From: Priestia megaterium NBRC 15308 = ATCC 14581
Lineage (GTDB): Bacteria; Bacillota; Bacilli; Bacillales; Bacillaceae_H
Direction of reading: 5' to 3'
Assembly (NCBI RefSeq): GCF_000832985.1
Contig: NZ_CP009920.1
Location: 2,438,001 to 2,502,000, forward strand
Length of the DNA stretch: 64,000 nucleotides
A program made the translations under genes and the position numbers. Below the pieces are notes generated by a model. It was not told the DNA's origin and did not search any database. It saw nothing but the letters and a program-made list of their open reading frames with translations. Shown in pieces: positions 15,623 through 24,838 of this stretch; the stretch's first letter is position 1, and the number at the start of each line of letters is the position of its first letter.

Positions 15623-17224
15623 GTGAAACACGGAAGAATGGGTCTGCGAAGCATCACGGTGCTGCTTGTATGCATGGTGGTGATTCTATCGCTATTGTTA
15701 ACGGATTTATTAGTTAGCAGTTCAATTGGAAAAAATATTCGGGATCAACAGGCTGAAAAAGCTCGGACTATTGCTGCGATTATTTCAGAATCCACGAACG
15801 TGAAAGAAGGACTAGAGACAAAAACACCTCAGTCAATTCAAGAATTCACTAAACGAATTCGTAAAAAATCAAGCGTCTTGTTTATCGTTGTTATGGATAT
15901 GAATGGAATTCGGCAATCTCACCCAGATCCTAAAAAGATAGGAAAGAGGTTTGCCGGAGGCGATGAGCAAAAATCATTGCACGGGAAATCTTATGTATCT
16001 GTATCAAAAGGAACGCTCGATAAATCTCTGCGCGCTTTTGCACCTATTTATAATGAAAAAAATCAACAAATTGGCGCAGTAGCTGTGGGGATTTCTTTGA
16101 ATAATGTAAATGAAGCAATTAGAGATGGGCATCGTCGAATTGTTTTAGGTTCATTAATTGGTTTACTTGTAGGCATTCTTGGTGCTATTTTATTAGCGAA
16201 TTACATAAAGAAAATTTTATTTGGCTTGGAACCCTCTGAAATTGCTAAAATTCTAGAAGAGAGAAGTACCATGCTGCAGTCGGTTCGTGAAGGAGTGATA
16301 GCTGTTGATAAAGAAGGTAATATTACACTTGCTAATCGTTCTGCACGCCGCTTATTTGTTAAAGCAGGGTTAGCACCAGAGCCAATCGGTTTGTCTATTC
16401 AAGAATATATGCCCACCTCCAGGCTGGACGACGTTTTGTCTACGGGGGAATCTCATTACGATGAAGAGCAATTCATAAATGGAGTAGCCATTGTGGTTAA
16501 CAGGGTTCCGCTAGTAGTAAACGAAGAGATTGTAGGGGCACTCTCTACGTTTCGGGATAAAACAGAAGTTAACATCTTAGCAGAACAGCTAACAGGTGTT
16601 AAAATGTATGTGGAAGCGCTTCGAGCACAATCGCATGAATTTATGAATAAACTTCATGTGATTTTAGGAATGGTACAGATGAATTATTATGATGAGCTAA
16701 AAACGTATATTCATCAGCTTGTTAATCATCGTGTCGATGAATCTAGTTCAGTGACTAAATCTATTAAAGATCATGCGTTGGCAGGGTTCCTCATGGGCAA
16801 AATGAGTTATGCTAGAGAGGAAAGCGTAGAACTGACGTTTTCCGCTGATGAAGTTATTCCAGAACCTTCAGATCCACACGTTACTCATCATCTCATTACC
16901 ATTATTGGAAATTTAATTGATAATGCAATTGATTCAGTTCGTCATCAAGCCTCTAAAAAAGTGTCCGTTATGCTTGTGTATAAAAACAATAAACTTACAA
17001 TTCAAGTCACGGATACAGGCTGCGGCATTCCTTCCGATACAATGAATCAGATTTTCAAGAAAGGCTTTTCTACAAAAGGCACGAGCAGAGGGTTTGGGCT
17101 GCATTTAGTGAAGCAAACGATTGATGAACTAGGTGGCCAAATCGTCATTGACTCATTTATAAATAGCGGTACCACATTCTATATTGATATTCCGTACGAA
17201 ACAAGGAGAGATCAAGTTGATTAA
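15623..17224 (+). CDS. CitS/DctS-type sensor histidine kinase
   Basis: A 533-residue membrane kinase. A hydrophobic segment at about residues 10-32, an extracytoplasmic sensor to about 172, a second membrane segment at about 174-195, and then a PAS domain are followed by the SPOB-type phosphoacceptor His in AQSHEFMNKLHVILGM and ATPase blocks NLIDNAIDSV, DTGCGIP and GFSTKGTSRGFGLHLVK. This is the family that senses C4- or C6-carboxylates (DctS, CitS, MalK). GTG 15623 has GAGGGA upstream. Its response regulator overlaps by 8 bases. No carboxylate transporter is adjacent, so the target is elsewhere. Confidence 0.88.
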   Translation: MKHGRMGLRSITVLLVCMVVILSLLLTDLLVSSSIGKNIRDQQAEKARTIAAIISESTNVKEGLETKTPQSIQEFTKRIRKKSSVLFIVVMDMNGIRQSHPDPKKIGKRFAGGDEQKSLHGKSYVSVSKGTLDKSLRAFAPIYNEKNQQIGAVAVGISLNNVNEAIRDGHRRIVLGSLIGLLVGILGAILLANYIKKILFGLEPSEIAKILEERSTMLQSVREGVIAVDKEGNITLANRSARRLFVKAGLAPEPIGLSIQEYMPTSRLDDVLSTGESHYDEEQFINGVAIVVNRVPLVVNEEIVGALSTFRDKTEVNILAEQLTGVKMYVEALRAQSHEFMNKLHVILGMVQMNYYDELKTYIHQLVNHRVDESSSVTKSIKDHALAGFLMGKMSYAREESVELTFSADEVIPEPSDPHVTHHLITIIGNLIDNAIDSVRHQASKKVSVMLVYKNNKLTIQVTDTGCGIPSDTMNQIFKKGFSTKGTSRGFGLHLVKQTIDELGGQIVIDSFINSGTTFYIDIPYETRRDQVD

Positions 17225-17942
17225 AGTATTAATTGTTGAAGATGACCCAATGGTTGCTCAGTTTAATCAAAAGTACATTGAAGAGATAGAGGGGTTTACA
17301 GTGGTCGCTGTTGCTCATTCGGGTCATGAAGCCTTGGTGAAGGTAAATGAATATCAAGTTGATTTAGTGCTGCTTGATGTCTTTATGCCTGGACAAAATG
17401 GTTTGAAAGTTTTAGAAGAGATTCGAACAAAACAAGAGGAAATAGATGTCATTTTTATCACCGCTGCTTCGGATGCCCAAACGATTCAGCAAGCTCTACG
17501 CTACGGAGCGATTGATTATTTGATTAAGCCTTTTACATTTGAACGCTTTTATCAAGCACTTTCGGCTTACAAACAAACATTTCGTACGTTAAAACAGCAA
17601 CCTCAGCTTAACCAACAGGAATTAGACGGGCTGCTGTCTAATAAAAAAATAAAAGAAGCTCGGGTAGAGCCGTTGCCTAAGGGTTTAACGACAGGAACAT
17701 TAGAAGTTATCGTAGAAGCCATTGAGCATCTTAAAGATCATCCTTTTTCGACTGATGATGTAGCTGAAAAAACGGGAATTTCAAGAGTGTCTATTCGGAA
17801 ATATTTAAAATTTCTAACAGATATAGGTCTTCTTGGAGAAAGAATGACTTACGGCACAATAGGACGACCTGTGTATGCGTACTTATACAATGAACAAAAC
17901 CGTCACTTGCTGCATCACTACCTCGTTGACTTTGAAAAATAA
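17217..17942 (+). CDS. CitT/DctR-type response regulator
   Basis: A 241-residue regulator. A receiver domain is at about residues 1-120 (acidic pocket IVEDDP, phosphoacceptor Asp in LVLLDVFMPG, Lys in YLIKPFTFERF); a helix-turn-helix domain near 165-225 contains TDDVAEKTGISRVSIRKYLKFL. This architecture pairs with CitS/DctS-type kinases. The start is TTG 17217, six bases after AAGGAGAG and inside the end of the kinase gene, showing translational coupling. The pair probably controls a transport gene located outside the window. Confidence 0.9.
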   Translation: MIKVLIVEDDPMVAQFNQKYIEEIEGFTVVAVAHSGHEALVKVNEYQVDLVLLDVFMPGQNGLKVLEEIRTKQEEIDVIFITAASDAQTIQQALRYGAIDYLIKPFTFERFYQALSAYKQTFRTLKQQPQLNQQELDGLLSNKKIKEARVEPLPKGLTTGTLEVIVEAIEHLKDHPFSTDDVAEKTGISRVSIRKYLKFLTDIGLLGERMTYGTIGRPVYAYLYNEQNRHLLHHYLVDFEK

Positions 17943-18082: not shown

Positions 18083-18742
18083 TTGATTGAAAGCATAGAA
18101 CGCTTGACTGAATTACTGTTATCAGGGAATCAAGATGAAGCTTGGAATATTGTGTGGAAAAAAAGACAGCAGGGTTTCGATACATTTTATATTTTTCAGC
18201 AATTCATTTCAGTGTCAATGGCTCAAATCGGTATGATGTGGGAAGAAGATGAAATTTCAGTGGCTGATGAACATTTAGCTACTACTACCTGTGACTATGT
18301 TTTGTCACGCTATCAATTGTGTATAAGACAAGAAGTTATTAAAAATGAAAAAAAAGGTCTGTTTTTGTGTATAGAAAATGAACAGCATTTTTTAGGTTTA
18401 AAAATGATTTCCATTCTCTTTGAAGAGCACGGATGGCAGACGAAACTTTTAGGGGCAGATTCTCCGCTTTTACATGCAACACACGCTGTTGAACAGTGGA
18501 AACCTGATTTAGTAGGAATCTCGTTCAGTTTAACTCATCATATAGAAAAAGCAAGCGAATATATAGAAGGATTACAAAAGACAAAACATCAGCCGCTTAT
18601 TTTAGTTGGAGGCCGAGTAGTTTCAAACTATAAGTTTCCTCTTGTTCAAACAAATCAAGTTCGATTTATTGCACAGTTAGAGGAGTTGAAAGAGTTTTTT
18701 CATTATCAATCAATTAGGGGGATTAAGGTTGTCGACTATTAA
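18083..18742 (+). CDS. Stand-alone B12-binding photoreceptor-like protein
   Basis: A 219-residue protein without a DNA-binding domain. Residues 1-85 are a helical cap containing W53, E63 and H64 in the spacing W-x9-EH, the signature known from CarH/LitR adenosylcobalamin photoreceptors. Residues 90-205 are a Rossmann-like B12 domain with E100-x-H102-x2-G105 (lower axial ligand His102), SFSL and LVGGR blocks. A cytosolic sensor of light or of cobalamin is expected. TTG 18083 follows GAGGTGG. Its last 14 bases overlap the STAS gene, so they are coupled. It could alternatively be a corrinoid methyltransferase subunit, but Wx9EH and the lack of a methyltransferase partner speak against that. Confidence 0.8.
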   Translation: MIESIERLTELLLSGNQDEAWNIVWKKRQQGFDTFYIFQQFISVSMAQIGMMWEEDEISVADEHLATTTCDYVLSRYQLCIRQEVIKNEKKGLFLCIENEQHFLGLKMISILFEEHGWQTKLLGADSPLLHATHAVEQWKPDLVGISFSLTHHIEKASEYIEGLQKTKHQPLILVGGRVVSNYKFPLVQTNQVRFIAQLEELKEFFHYQSIRGIKVVDY

Positions 18743-19481
18743 ATATTCTCCGCTTCCTGTTTTTATTATGGATGAGGAAATGAATATTCTAGCGCAATCT
18801 GATGAAGCAGCCGCTTTATTCGGAGAGGTTCAACATTTTTTAGAAATTGTTGACGAAGATAGTCAGATCAAAGCTAGAAAACGATTAGGGCAGAAGAAAA
18901 AAATAAAAACAGAATTAGTCATGCATTCGCGCAAAGCTAAAATGTCTCTTTATACGGTGAATTGCAAATGGGAGCAAGGTAAGGCGCATGTAATATGTGT
19001 AGAGGAAGATTCTCAAATTAGAATTCTTTCAGAAAAAATCCAACAACATACAGCGCGTTTATCTGAAACAGACTTAGAACTGCTGCTGCAAAAAGAACGA
19101 TTAGAAAAAGCAATGAACCGAGTTATAGAACTGTCGGGACCGTTTATTCATTTATCGAACAACATGGTGCTTATACCTCTGTTTGGTGATTTATTTGAGG
19201 AAGTCATCATGAAAAATGAACATCGGCTGCTCAGACAAATAGATGAAGAAACGGTTGATCGAGTTATCATTGACTTTAATGGAATAGGTCAAATTGATGA
19301 ACGAGGTGTTGCAGCCCTAGAACATTTAATATGGGAATTTCAGCTAATGGGTGTACAGATTTATTTAACAGGTGTGACACCCGATCATAGTCAATGGCTT
19401 CACCAGTATCATTTTCAAGCAAATGTAAAATCTATTAGTAACTTAGGTCAGGCCATTCATCAATTTTTTACAACGGCATGA
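18729..19481 (+). CDS. PAS-like/STAS domain protein (RsbR/YtvA-like)
   Basis: A 250-residue cytosolic protein. The N-terminal 85 residues look PAS-like (PLPVFIMDEEMNILAQSDEA) but lack the GRNCRFLQ flavin motif of LOV domains. A helical linker at about 100-135 leads to a C-terminal STAS domain that begins RVIELSGPFIHLSNN, as in RsbR paralogues and YtvA. At the first phosphothreonine region of RsbR this protein has I-D-E191-R-G, while Thr214 in YLTGV is kept. The start is TTG 18729 after AGGGGG; it overlaps the B12 gene. A stressosome component taking input from the B12 protein is my inference. Confidence 0.78.
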   Translation: MSTIKYSPLPVFIMDEEMNILAQSDEAAALFGEVQHFLEIVDEDSQIKARKRLGQKKKIKTELVMHSRKAKMSLYTVNCKWEQGKAHVICVEEDSQIRILSEKIQQHTARLSETDLELLLQKERLEKAMNRVIELSGPFIHLSNNMVLIPLFGDLFEEVIMKNEHRLLRQIDEETVDRVIIDFNGIGQIDERGVAALEHLIWEFQLMGVQIYLTGVTPDHSQWLHQYHFQANVKSISNLGQAIHQFFTTA

Positions 19482-19558
19482 AATGGCTACAAAAAGTGAA
19501 CACTTCATATAAAGACAATAAGACAGGGGATCAATATTGATAAACAGGTGATTAAAAT

Positions 19559-20869
19559 TTGGTGAAACACGCGCGTAAAGTAGCTTTAAGAATTTCAATT
19601 ATATATATCATTATTGGCGCTGTATGGATCTTGATATCTGATAATATATCTAGAACATTAGCGCAAGGTCGTTTTGAAGTATATATTTTTTTTCAACAAT
19701 ACAAAGGTTGGCTTTTTATTTTAGCTACGGGGATTATTTTGTATGGGTTGGTATATAGGAGAGCTTATAAACTAGTGGAGTCCCAGCAAGAGCTCGTAGT
19801 AAAAGAACACGAACTTCAAACGAGCAATCAGCACTATCAATCTTTGTTTAAACATAATCCCGATGGCGTTTTTGAAATCAGTAAAACGGGTGAAGTTCTT
19901 CTTGCTAATCCAGAAGGTGAAGCAATCGTTGGATACTCCAGTGAAGAATTGCAAAAGATGAAACCTTCAGCTCTTATCGCAGCTGAAGAGTTTGATATGT
20001 GTAAAGAGTATTTTAAAGAAGTGCTGAATGGAAAAGGTGCTAAGTTCGAAATGAATGTGATCAATAGAAAGCGAGAAAGACGGTTGCTTAGGTGTTCTTT
20101 GCTTCCCATCATCGTTCATAAGCAGGTAGTAGGTGTATTTATGATTGCACGCGATATTACTACATACCGTCAAGATGAAGAGCTTATGATAACCTCGGAA
20201 AAAATGTCCGTTATTGGACAAATGGCAGGTGCCGTCGCACATGAAATTAGAAACCCGCTTACTTCTTTAAAAGGCTTTGTACAGGTTATGCAAGCCTCTA
20301 AGGAAACAAATGACACATATTTAGATATTATGATGTCTGAAATCGACCGCATCAACTTAATCTCGAGTGAAATGCTCATTCTTGGAAAAAAGCAGCATGT
20401 ATCTTTTGAAAAGACCAATTTATGCGAAATTTTAAAACAAGTTGTTACGCTAATGGAAGCGCAGGCAAATTTAAATAATGTTTCTATTTTATTGAAAGAA
20501 ACAGCCAAAAGGCCTATTTATGTTTCTGCTGATTCAAATCAGTTGAAACAAGTTTTCATCAATGTGATTAAAAACGGTGTAGAAGCTATTATGGAGAAAG
20601 GTCATATTACAATAACAGTTGAAGAAAAAGATACACGAGCATTGATTCACTTTGAAGACAATGGAATCGGAATGAGTCAAGAGAGGATTGAACAAGTAGG
20701 AACGCCGTTTTATTCTACAAAAGAAGCTGGCACTGGCTTAGGGCTGGCCGTGTGTTACAAAATCATGGAGCGTCATCAAGGTACCATGCATTTTAAAAGC
20801 GGTAAAGGAAAAGGGACAACGGTTATTATTGATATGCCAATTATAGAACGAAACAGCCGCCTCTCGTAG
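19559..20869 (+). CDS. PAS-containing membrane sensor histidine kinase (sporulation-kinase-like)
   Basis: A 436-residue kinase. Two N-terminal hydrophobic segments (about residues 10-28 and 50-67) flank a very short loop, then a PAS domain at about 90-205 (NPDGVFEISKTGEVLLANPEG), the HisKA box AGAVAHEIRNPLTSLKGFVQ, and ATPase motifs NVIKNGVEAI, FEDNGIGM, GTGLGLAV and GKGKGTT. The HisKA sequence is of the KinA-KinE class that feeds phosphate to Spo0F-like regulators; no response regulator follows. It starts 77 bases after the STAS gene on the same strand (TTG 19559 or GTG 19562). Its 3' end is embedded in a terminator stem. Confidence 0.85.
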   Translation: MVKHARKVALRISIIYIIIGAVWILISDNISRTLAQGRFEVYIFFQQYKGWLFILATGIILYGLVYRRAYKLVESQQELVVKEHELQTSNQHYQSLFKHNPDGVFEISKTGEVLLANPEGEAIVGYSSEELQKMKPSALIAAEEFDMCKEYFKEVLNGKGAKFEMNVINRKRERRLLRCSLLPIIVHKQVVGVFMIARDITTYRQDEELMITSEKMSVIGQMAGAVAHEIRNPLTSLKGFVQVMQASKETNDTYLDIMMSEIDRINLISSEMLILGKKQHVSFEKTNLCEILKQVVTLMEAQANLNNVSILLKETAKRPIYVSADSNQLKQVFINVIKNGVEAIMEKGHITITVEEKDTRALIHFEDNGIGMSQERIEQVGTPFYSTKEAGTGLGLAVCYKIMERHQGTMHFKSGKGKGTTVIIDMPIIERNSRLS

Positions 20870-22691: not shown

Positions 22692-23009
22692 ATGGATGCA
22701 ATTGATGATCTCTTTGACGACATAGAGCGAAGAAGAAAAAGTAAAGAATATAGTCGAGATGCAGATCAATTAGAATCATATTTACATGAAGTTCAACGTA
22801 TCATGGAATTTCTTGAAGAGGGTATCTATCTGTTTCAAAATTCGCACCAACAATATGCGTCAGATTGGTCAGGGCGTTCTAAGAGCTCATATGAGGATAT
22901 TTATAATGATATTACGCAATCTACTTTTCATCTGTACGACGTAAGGGATGAATTGTTTCAAACTTTACGCTTAGAAATTTCACGATTAAGAGAGTTAGCA
23001 TCGGCGTAA
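22692..23009 (+). CDS. WXG100-like type VII secretion accessory protein
   Basis: A 105-residue, strongly helical acidic protein. Two helices are joined by W59-S-G61, the WXG turn, and Y81-x3-D85 near the C-terminus matches the YxxxD/E secretion signal of ESX substrates. It is not the canonical EsxA, which is encoded downstream at 24545. GGGGAC lies upstream of ATG 22692, a modest ribosome site. As the first gene of the locus, it is likely a secreted partner or chaperone of the next protein. The family is not recognised more closely. Confidence 0.7.
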   Translation: MDAIDDLFDDIERRRKSKEYSRDADQLESYLHEVQRIMEFLEEGIYLFQNSHQQYASDWSGRSKSSYEDIYNDITQSTFHLYDVRDELFQTLRLEISRLRELASA

Positions 23010-23118
23010 TAAATAACATTATCGACTCACTCCTTTAGAAAGTGAGTCTTTCCGTATAGGCTTAAAAAATGTTTGGATGATGACTGAAGGCTTACAAGAG
23101 ATAGGGGGACGGACATAC

Positions 23119-23718
23119 ATGGAGATAAAAGTAAATCCAGAGGTGCTGCGGACATTTGCAGAGCGAATTCAGCACTCTCATTCACAGACGGCTGATGCAC
23201 TTCAAAAACTAAGCTGGGAAGCTACAAATCTACATTTCTTGTCTGTTGCAGATATTGATAAAGTGCTGGACTTGCAGGAAGAGTTACAGCATATGATTCG
23301 CAAACTTGATTCGCTAACGGAAAACGCACATTTATTAGTAAAAGACACTGCAGAACAAATGAGAAAAGCAGATGGAGAGCTAGAAGGCTCTTCAGGCTGG
23401 ACGGAGTTTTGGTCGAGCGTGTGGAGCAATGGGGGCACACATTCACAAGATACGTGGAATGACATAAAGAACTTAAAAGAATGGAATACGTATGACAATA
23501 TGCATAGAACGATTGAAAAACCTTTAGGTACTCTTAATGTTATGTGGAATTCGCTTTCTATGTCTTGGGAAGAAAAAGTAGTGAATGGTTCTACATGCAG
23601 TCGAACCGAATTTTTTACTTATGGCGTTATTCAAATGGGGTTGGGCATTTTAAGTCAGGAAATGAATCCTTCAAACATTATGTTTAGTGACAGCACAGAG
23701 GAAGTGAAGAGAGAATGA
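23119..23718 (+). CDS. Putative type VII secretion substrate with WXG-like N-terminal domain
   Basis: A 199-residue protein. The first about 100 residues are helical and begin MEIKVNPEVLRTFAERI, the style of WXG100 and related T7SS targets; a Trp/Ser-rich segment follows (SSGWTEFWSSVWSNG), then a unique C-terminal 85 residues with no recognised domain. ATG 23119 has AGGGGGAC upstream. Its stop overlaps the start of a 22-codon frame (ATGA). It may be a small effector or a substrate partner of the preceding gene. No signal peptide is seen. No nuclease or toxin motif is evident. Confidence 0.6.
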   Translation: MEIKVNPEVLRTFAERIQHSHSQTADALQKLSWEATNLHFLSVADIDKVLDLQEELQHMIRKLDSLTENAHLLVKDTAEQMRKADGELEGSSGWTEFWSSVWSNGGTHSQDTWNDIKNLKEWNTYDNMHRTIEKPLGTLNVMWNSLSMSWEEKVVNGSTCSRTEFFTYGVIQMGLGILSQEMNPSNIMFSDSTEEVKRE

Positions 23719-23783
23719 ATGAAGTATATGATGGCGCTGGAAGTGAAATGGTACAGTTCCTTACAGGGTTGTCTCGGCAATGA
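23715..23783 (+). CDS. 22-residue open frame linked by ATGA overlaps on both sides
   Basis: ATG 23715 overlaps the stop of the preceding gene as ATGA, and its own TGA at 23781-23783 overlaps ATG 23780 of the SseB-like gene in the same way. The peptide begins MNEVYDGAGSEM. It has no independent ribosome site and the next gene also lacks one, so the frame may serve to carry ribosomes from one gene to the next, or be the remnant of a larger gene. Confidence 0.4.
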   Translation: MNEVYDGAGSEMVQFLTGLSRQ

Positions 23784-24172
23784 AATATACATTTAACTTA
23801 TTAGAAAAATCATTAATTGAAGCAATGAAAGATAATAAGAAGATTGCTCAATTTTATAAGACTTTAATGAATAGCAATTTATGGCTAGTTGTTAGTTCAG
23901 AGCATGGAGCATCAGATATATTAATTGCAGAGCACTACGTTCAGACGATGAAAAGCGCAGCGTACCGATATTTACCTGTTTTTTCGTCAAAATATCCGAT
24001 TGAACAGATGCTGAAAGATGAAAAGACCGTATGCGTATCATTTAAGGATATGCTGCCTGTATTAAATGAAGAAATAGCGATATTACTTAACCCTGACACG
24101 CCTCTCTCAAAATTATTCATCCCCGAAGAAATAAGGATGTTAAAAGAAGATCAAAATTATTTTAAGCAGTAG
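23780..24172 (+). CDS. SseB-like domain protein in the type VII secretion locus
   Basis: A 130-residue protein. The pattern is that of the SseB N-terminal domain: helical start FNLLEKSLIEAM, then strand NSNLWLVVSS, then YLPVFSSKYPIEQML and VSFKDMLPVL, ending with IAILLNPDTPLSKLFIP. Such domains occur beside secretion loci and in possible immunity or chaperone roles; its function here is unknown. ATG 23780 has no Shine-Dalgarno sequence and overlaps the stop of a 22-codon frame, suggesting translational re-initiation. A hairpin with a T-run follows. Confidence 0.65.
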   Translation: MKYTFNLLEKSLIEAMKDNKKIAQFYKTLMNSNLWLVVSSEHGASDILIAEHYVQTMKSAAYRYLPVFSSKYPIEQMLKDEKTVCVSFKDMLPVLNEEIAILLNPDTPLSKLFIPEEIRMLKEDQNYFKQ

Positions 24173-24242
24173 CCAAAAAATAAAAAGCGCATGTGCTTTT
24201 CCCAAGCATGTCTGAATCTTAAATAAATAGAAGATATATAAA

Positions 24243-24278
24243 GGGGCAGGGCCTTAAATAGGCTGCTGCTTTTTTATT
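24243..24278 (+). terminator. Terminator separating accessory genes from the esx operon
   Basis: GCAG(G)GCC and GGC(TG)CTGC pair around TTAAATA, followed by TTTTTT. Confidence 0.65.
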
Positions 24279-24481
24279 ACTAGTAAATAGTTCTATAGAT
24301 AATGAACAAAAATGTAATTTAATAGACTTATAGTTTTTATTTTCCTTTAAATAGGTACCTATAGATCATATGGAAAAGATTTAAATGAGAATAAAATCTT
24401 GGTTGTTTAGGTTTTATTTGCATTTTTTAGGGGTATTTGTAGATACATATTCTCATTTTTGGAGGCTTTTGCAAGTAACCT

Positions 24482-24510
24482 TTGACCTTATCATTAGAGT
24501 TTCTTACAAT
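24482..24510 (+). promoter_or_regulatory. Sigma-A promoter of the esxA operon
   Basis: TTGACC (24482-24487) and TACAAT (24505-24510) are separated by exactly 17 bases, 35 bases before ATG 24545. This is the strongest promoter match in the secretion locus. Confidence 0.75.
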
Positions 24511-24544
24511 AATAGTAAATATATAAACCGAAGGAGAGATATGT

Positions 24545-24838
24545 ATGTCAGGAATTATTCGCGTAACACCAGCAGAGCTTCGCGACATGGCAGGTCGTTA
24601 TACTAACGAAAGCGGTCAAGTTCAAGAATTAGTAAGTCGTCTTGATACAATGAAAAATCAACTTCAAGACATGTGGGAAGGTGCTTCAAGCGAAGCGTTT
24701 GCTGCTCAATACGAAGAATTAAAGCCTTCTTTCGTTGAAATGTCTAACCTACTTACAAAGATTGCTAAGCAATTAGATGACTCTGCAAACGTTCTTGAAG
24801 ATACAGATAACCAAATCGCTAGCCAAATCCGCGGTTAA
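24545..24838 (+). CDS. esxA: ESX substrate EsxA/YukE (WXG100)
   Basis: A 97-residue WXG100 protein: two helices joined by W-E-G in LQDMWEGASSEAF, with the typical start IIRVTPAELRDMAGRY and a C-terminal LEDTDNQIASQIRG. It is exported as a homodimer by the type VII machine encoded downstream. AAGGAGAG precedes ATG 24545. A terminator-like hairpin directly after the gene should make esxA more abundant than the machine genes, as usual for the secreted substrate. Confidence 0.95.
   Translation: MSGIIRVTPAELRDMAGRYTNESGQVQELVSRLDTMKNQLQDMWEGASSEAFAAQYEELKPSFVEMSNLLTKIAKQLDDSANVLEDTDNQIASQIRG

Follow-up and report, generated by a model that had tools for sequence, protein, structure and literature searches.

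Conserved pairs of B12-binding and PAS-STAS genes in Bacillales suggest an unrecognised light route to the general stress response

The window analysed here, a stretch of 64,000 nucleotides of the 5.75 Mb genome of Priestia megaterium NBRC 15308 = ATCC 14581 (contig NZ_CP009920.1; G000:C6:2438001-2502000 in our numbering), encodes a stand-alone B12-binding protein whose gene overlaps by 14 bases the gene of a predicted PAS-STAS protein. The B12-binding protein is closer to the adenosylcobalamin (AdoCbl) photoreceptors known as photocobilins than to corrinoid methyltransferase-type proteins. Its partner resembles the stressosome proteins YtvA and RsbR, and the pairing is conserved in Bacillales. 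Our preferred reading, held with moderate confidence, is that the two proteins provide, respectively, the sensing and the output side of a light sensor with two chromophores that feeds the sigma-B stressosome. The relevant features of the window are the following.

18083..18742, + strand: stand-alone B12-binding protein, 219 amino acids (aa); photoreceptor-type motifs, Pfam, PDB search, alignment
18239..18274, + strand: W53-x9-E63-H64, the upper-face AdoCbl signature of CarH and photocobilins; sequence, alignment
18380..18397, + strand: E100-x-H102-x2-G105, the lower axial His motif; sequence, alignment
18729..19481, + strand: predicted PAS - 41-residue helix - STAS protein, 250 aa, of RsbR/YtvA-type architecture; Pfam, AlphaFold2, Foldseek
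19559..20869, + strand: PAS histidine kinase, 436 aa, a neighbour only; Pfam, NCBIfam

All three open reading frames (ORFs) start with TTG, and 77 bases separate the pair from the kinase gene. The places and strand of the ORFs, the overlap, the gap, and both motifs were confirmed in the sequence as given in a preliminary description of this region, which had read the three genes as a B12 photoreceptor module coupled to a stressosome-type STAS protein and a kinase. The closest named locus is from P. aryabhattai, with a B12-binding protein that is 98% identical.

The B12-binding protein

Pfam divides the B12-binding protein into a helical half (PF02607) and a Rossmann half (PF02310) and detects no MerR-type DNA-binding domain, in agreement with the preliminary description. 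The protein shares AdoCbl photoreceptor residues with CarH and LitR and differs from them in lacking the MerR-type domain; a MerR-type CarH-like protein (L007) is also encoded in the host genome. A PDB sequence search identifies the photocobilin SasPcob (5e-13) and 8jbs (1e-10) as the top matches, followed by 4jgi (1e-5), 1y80 (5e-5), and AerR (0.001). In the PDB alignments, the W and EH of the Wx9EH motif are common to the B12-binding protein and SasPcob, and other residues occupy these positions in 4jgi and 1y80. An alignment of 37 relatives contains 14 invariant columns, including G50, W53, E63, H64, E100, H102, G105, G124, and P128. Both GxxW with Wx9EH and the ExHxxG motif, which contains the lower axial histidine (E/DxH), are present in 56/56 Bacillales relatives (the 57 loci described below minus L087, in which the B12 gene is broken). 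E63 and H64 were absent from the search patterns of the scan that collected the named genomes, and every one of the 23 loci among the 56 that lack the W-containing search pattern has Wx9EH. In a phylogenetic tree, 12 members of the module form a separate clade with 99/100 support; the CarH and MetH outgroups lie on very long branches, and the sister group was not placed. There is no fused B12-STAS protein among the listed frames, and none of the B12 rows listed contains a frame longer than 292 aa. Two plasmid matches, with 27-29% identity, come from Azospirillum.

The signature of light-responsive B12 domains is given as GxxW, EH, GxxH, and GxxxP (PMC11796333). The G124 and P128 of GxxxP belong to the invariant columns, and a stricter LGxxxP fits 30/56 relatives. 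Two observations weigh against the photoreceptor assignment: at the glycine position of GxxH the window protein has N, with G in place in 29/56 relatives, and among the NCBIfam models MtgC (43.6 bits) outscores CarH (33.9 bits), both far under their cut-offs. The MtgC score, the highest that the protein receives, would favour a methyl carrier of the corrinoid type with the STAS gene as an unrelated neighbour. This is very improbable given that MtgC requires 370 bits, with the remaining corrinoid methyltransferase models scoring lower still, that the photoreceptor residues are present, that no methyltransferase was found among six neighbouring proteins scanned, and that a PAS-like partner follows in all loci, mostly with overlapping longest frames. 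The profile comparison with corrinoid methyltransferase subunits, proposed in the preliminary description, accordingly does not place the protein among them, and the AdoCbl photoreceptor kinship claimed there is borne out by the PDB search and the W and EH residues.

The PAS-STAS partner

In the protein encoded at 18729-19481, Pfam detects a C-terminal STAS domain (PF01740) and no PAS domain. The AlphaFold2 model, built from a 38-sequence alignment, contains a domain of PAS topology (residues 11-92), a helix (95-135), and the STAS domain (146-249), with a mean predicted local distance difference test score (pLDDT) of 82. A Foldseek search of the PDB started with this model retrieves full-length YtvA first (E 2e-12, template modelling (TM) score 0.39), then RsbS of Bacillus subtilis, and further SpoIIAA and, at rank 5, a Listeria stressosome chain. 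YtvA is also the top match in the PDB sequence search (4e-8), and the partner scores 57 bits to the NCBIfam YtvA family, for which the cut-off is 250. The RsbR/YtvA-type assignment is supported: judging from the model and the matches, the partner has the predicted build of an N-terminal sensor, a helix, and a C-terminal STAS domain. The blue-light stressosome proteins YtvA and RsbL (LOV-STAS) likewise combine a PAS-class sensor, a long helix, and a C-terminal STAS domain. However, they carry a flavin-binding LOV domain in their own chain, whereas no NCRFLQ-type LOV flavin motif is found in the partner sequence and the proposed photoreceptor is the separate B12-binding protein.

Some features of the partner speak against a YtvA/RsbR-like role. 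With a predicted TM score (pTM) of 0.47 for the partner model and a whole-chain TM of 0.39 to YtvA, the PAS-STAS arrangement is not confidently predicted. In addition, the window partner has D and E at the sites matching T171 and T205 of RsbR, the threonines targeted by RsbT. Across 38 partners, the T171 site is occupied by D in 27, T in 5, E in 5, and N in 1, and the T205 site by E in 14, A in 5, D in 5, T in 3, S in 3, P in 3, and other residues in 5. The host genome's own YtvA likewise has no T at the T205 site.

Conservation of the gene pair

The scan of named genomes yielded 74 loci, 54 of which are filed under Bacillales (L036-L088, L107), one of these (L054) being an unplaced Bacillota metagenome-assembled genome and several being strains of one species; together with the three copies of the host genome, this makes 57 Bacillales loci. 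A profile recount, with a profile built with 35 of the 57 partner domains, finds the PAS-like partner domain directly downstream of the B12 gene in 57/57 loci, although the partner of L058 is a decayed remnant. STAS is present in 40/57 partners, and 38/40 STAS-type pairs overlap, as judged from the longest frames. The recurrence of the pair, which the preliminary description had put forward for checking together with its overlap, exceeds what chance would give. The 17 partners without STAS comprise nine frames of 206-243 aa, five of about 180 aa, two full kinases, and one remnant. The two full-kinase partners, both from one species, have D in place of H in the H-box; the kinase-type partners of L145, L149, and L150 keep H. 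Because 17/57 partners lack STAS, two of them being full kinases, B12 + PAS appears to serve more generally as an input module.

Of 299 sampled Bacillales genomes, 136 (47/117 genera) have a match to the B12 family at E <= 1e-30, 136 have the PAS-like domain (E <= 1e-4), and 131 have both. These genome counts take no account of relatedness, which reduces their weight in favour of the proposed module.

The third gene of the window fares differently. Pfam finds PAS, HisKA, and HATPase domains in the 19559-20869 protein, and its AtoS/KinD-like NCBIfam scores are each under the curated cut-off. In a survey of neighbours covering the 57 loci with flanks of up to 4 kb, a same-strand kinase follows a STAS-type pair only in the window and in L036, both from Priestia, among 40 STAS-type loci. 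Because of this narrow distribution, the kinase is no conserved part of the module, contrary to what had been proposed, and is probably a bystander.

Photoglobin and heme monooxygenase

Of the cassette, the preliminary description had recognised the pair and missed two further genes. In 23/57 loci, a monooxygenase gene and a globin gene stand ahead of the B12 gene; two further loci have only the monooxygenase gene, and two others only the globin gene, placed after a kinase-type partner. The monooxygenase (about 101 aa) matches the Pfam family ABM (antibiotic-monooxygenase fold), and its W65 and H75 do not vary among 23 sequences. It is closest to the HmuQ/IsdG heme oxygenases, under the NCBIfam cut-offs, and its PDB matches are heme-degrading monooxygenases (best 7e-9). 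The position corresponding to the catalytic Asn residue of IsdG is variable.

The globin (about 115-125 aa) matches no Pfam family in the two members scanned. The best PDB matches of its profile are the globin domain of SasPcob (0.0067) and phycocyanin (0.014), and its KCxED motif aligns with the Cys-x-x-Asp chromophore motif of phycocyanin, with the cysteine replaced by T or A in part of the alignment. The AlphaFold2 model (pLDDT 97) is a five-helix globin, and the 50 Foldseek matches listed are all phycobiliproteins or the biliverdin-binding smURFP (E 0.004 to 0.036). The same globin domain is fused to the B12-binding protein in four loci outside Bacillales (L092, L093, L099, and L105), which is the photocobilin/photoglobin arrangement. 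Taken together, these similarities point to a globin of the phycobiliprotein/photoglobin type with predicted bilin binding. At a threshold of E <= 1e-8, this globin is present in 124/299 Bacillales genomes, in 117 together with the B12 family and in 7 alone, with neither in 156. B12 and globin co-occur unlinked in many genomes, because the globin is within 3 kb of the B12 gene in only 71 of the 150 listed B12 loci. In the host genome, the monooxygenase and globin genes overlap at C6:16766-17427 (L152:1136-1803), in an operon unlinked to B12, and in all four unlinked cases inspected (L152-L155) the two genes stay together. If the contig is circular, the host operon lies about 19 kb from the second B12 pair of this genome (pair 2, below); the corresponding distance is 19-22 kb in the relatives G007, G009, and G015. 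No monooxygenase match adjoins the diverged globins of L156, L157, L158, L160, and L162. The first four of these photoglobin-like genes come from genomes without a B12-family match.

From this gene content, the photoglobin and the heme monooxygenase may complete the B12 sensor. Against this, no globin Foldseek match reaches E 0.001 and the 50 matches listed include no photocobilin; 19/136 B12 genomes have no photoglobin match; and the host photoglobin and monooxygenase adjoin none of its three B12 pairs.

Photocobilins are sensors with AdoCbl and biliverdin; SasPcob and AbDPcob consist of a B12 domain with the W-EH and E/DxH motifs and a bilin-binding globin (PMC10979010). They hold B12 and globin on one chain, whereas in Bacillales these are separate genes, and the Bacillales cassette differs further by its IsdG/HmuQ-like monooxygenase and PAS-STAS partner. 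In the BBAG-2/photoglobin clusters, globins akin to phycobiliproteins are encoded with B12-binding proteins, and a heme oxygenase is found nearby or elsewhere in the genome (PMC10151467). The clusters described in the text examined are associated with pre-PcyA bilin reductases or with Myxococcales globins, and that text contains none of the words STAS, Bacill, and Firmicutes (PMC10151467). No report of a B12-binding protein joined to STAS in Bacillus was found in the literature searched, most subscription papers being outside the search. Part of these findings may already be in print in the 2022 photoglobin paper; that paper (Schneider 2022) reportedly describes photoglobin gene neighbourhoods.

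The same module and output could respond to a signal other than light, such as cobalamin supply, heme breakdown, oxygen, or redox state. A heme monooxygenase belongs to the cassette, and the glycine of the light-sensor signature is missing in 27/56 relatives. We consider this unlikely, given that the W and EH residues, invariant in the 37 aligned sequences, are those of photocobilins and not of 4jgi and 1y80, that the B12 family co-occurs with a globin of phycobiliprotein/photoglobin type, and that one pair adjoins a LOV-STAS YtvA gene.

Proposed link to the sigma-B stressosome

The host genome contains rsbR-S-T-U-V-W-sigB-rsbX, identified from resemblance and gene order; its STAS matches total 25. 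Strong RsbT (E < 1e-40) is present in 129/136 B12-positive versus 101/163 B12-negative Bacillales genomes. It is found in 95/96 genomes with STAS-type partner frames, and in the exception (G224) RsbT matches less strongly and RsbS lies where a contig ends. Of the eight genomes with kinase-type frames only, five lack strong RsbT, four of the five being from one family; a B12 match is lacking in G061 and G132, which belong to the eight. In these counts, which likewise take no account of relatedness, the partner type was assigned from frame length; both points weaken the association. A listed RsbT coordinate makes 117 B12 loci scorable, and 50 of these share a contig with rsbT. In 20 of the 117, all from the two families f21 and f46, the B12 gene has the same orientation as rsbT and lies 7.1-9.2 kb upstream of it. 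For example, in L140, L141, L142, and L146, the order monooxygenase - globin - B12 - PAS-STAS is followed by one small opposite-strand gene and then by acpS to alr, ndoA, and rsbR ... sigB (acpS was not resolved in L146, and rsbS and rsbT of L140 were masked by an automatic filter). In the neighbour survey, acpS is next to the pair in 9/57 loci. The proximity to sigB may reflect one event, being limited to f21 and f46, and this too tempers the stressosome connection.

A light sensor whose output is not the sigma-B stressosome, acting through STAS alone, another partner switch, or histidine kinases, for example of the sporulation phosphorelay, is similarly unlikely. It would accommodate the 17/57 partners without STAS and the two full kinases among them, the convergent histidine kinase found in 8/9 loci with a 206-213 aa partner without STAS, and the loss of most RsbT-target threonines. 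It is opposed by the near-universal RsbT in genomes with STAS-type partners, its absence at the strong level from most kinase-type-only genomes, the placement of the pair upstream of rsbRST-sigB in two families, and the closest fold being that of YtvA, an established part of the B. subtilis stressosome (PMC3019169). The stressosome coupling proposed in the preliminary description is partly supported, by the rsbRST-sigB genes, the co-occurrence of RsbT with STAS-type partners, and the proximity to rsbT in two families. The wiring, presented there as new, is less unforeseen than it seemed, since in 2024 it was proposed from interaction networks that Saccharothrix photocobilins may contact STAS, SpoIIE, and PP2C proteins (PMC10979010).

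Regulatory sites add little in the window. The sigma-B promoter consensus pattern has 3 matches there versus 2.5 expected, none close to the pair; sigma-70-like sites number 11 versus 12.2 in shuffled sequence, and terminator-like sites 3 versus 1.4, none inside the pair or ahead of the kinase gene.

Other copies and neighbouring genes

The host genome carries two more pairs.

C6:5338617-5341892 (L029:6193-9222): pair 2, STAS type, 221 + 274 aa, overlap 14
near C6:4480600 (L030:4622-9434): pair 3, 212 aa + 206-aa partner without STAS

Pair 2 is divergent, by about 770 bp, from a gene for a LOV-STAS YtvA with the NCRFLQ motif; blue-light and putative B12 light inputs thus adjoin at this locus. 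A second YtvA beside a cassette (L042) was considered and rejected, the match being a PAS stretch that ends a transporter. Pair 3 is convergent with a gene for a 1186-aa histidine kinase, in which CheB and CheR parts were recognised by eye. In the 206-aa partner of pair 3, the tail looks by eye like a HisKA segment, and Pfam detects no HisKA there.

Several loci show other arrangements. In Priestia relatives, stand-alone PAS-like domains of 143-145 aa without an output domain (L147:2671-3102 and L148:3207-3644) have no adjoining B12 gene in the stretches read. A variant order is seen in L165:1013-3393 (G181), where a weak PAS-like protein is followed by B12, monooxygenase, and globin. Outside Bacillales, the B12 gene is followed in L089, L090, L095, and L101 by a gene for a helical-looking protein of 151-239 aa; those of L090 and L095 have no Pfam match, and those of L095 and L101 match the globin profile. 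In L092, L094, L099, L102, and L105 (records from Lokiarchaeota, Spirochaetaceae, Ignavibacteria, Solidesulfovibrio, and Bacteroidetes), the B12-binding protein is followed by a histidine kinase, as identified by eye.

Elsewhere in the window, a DcuS/MalK-type sensor and a DcuR-type regulator (15623-17942) lie upstream of the pair. This two-component system was examined as a source of functional clues and discarded, having no B12 tie. Small proteins encoded at 22692-24838 resemble, by eye, WXG100/ESX-type secretion cargo.

Proposed mechanism and implications

The scheme that we infer, from the cofactors and light response through PAS docking and stressosome assembly to the sign of the response, is as follows. 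The B12-binding protein would hold AdoCbl, as in CarH and photocobilins, and breakage of the Co-C bond by light would change its dimer state. The separate photoglobin and a dedicated heme monooxygenase of the IsdG/HmuQ type would supply bilin, which would extend the response to red light in the manner of the fused globin domain of photocobilins. The B12-binding protein would dock on its overlapping partner at the PAS domain, and the long helix of this partner would relay the signal to STAS. Seated among the RsbR paralogues in the stressosome, this STAS domain would bias RsbT release and, through RsbU and RsbV, sigma-B. This B12 + PAS input would be shared by other copies, where it would drive a kinase or an unknown helical tail. 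We are evenly divided on the broader proposition that Bacillales possess a split cobalamin and bilin receptor for green and red light, with its own bilin-making enzyme, wired through PAS to the sigma-B stressosome or to histidine-kinase outputs.

In 2011, red light was described as activating sigma-B in B. subtilis and Listeria, with the receptor not unambiguously identified (PMC3019169). The B12 + PAS-STAS pairs, often found in genomes that have a gene for a bilin-type sensor as well, suggest an unrecognised light route to the general stress response. If this is correct, many Bacillales, judging from the B12 gene in 136/299 sampled genomes, would have a defined green/red-light input to the stressosome, and a cobalamin/bilin light input would stand beside the flavin one. 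The stressosome would then be seen to take a signal from a separate photoreceptor via a docking domain, and the cassette would offer a modular B12- and bilin-based switch for optogenetics in harmless spore-formers.

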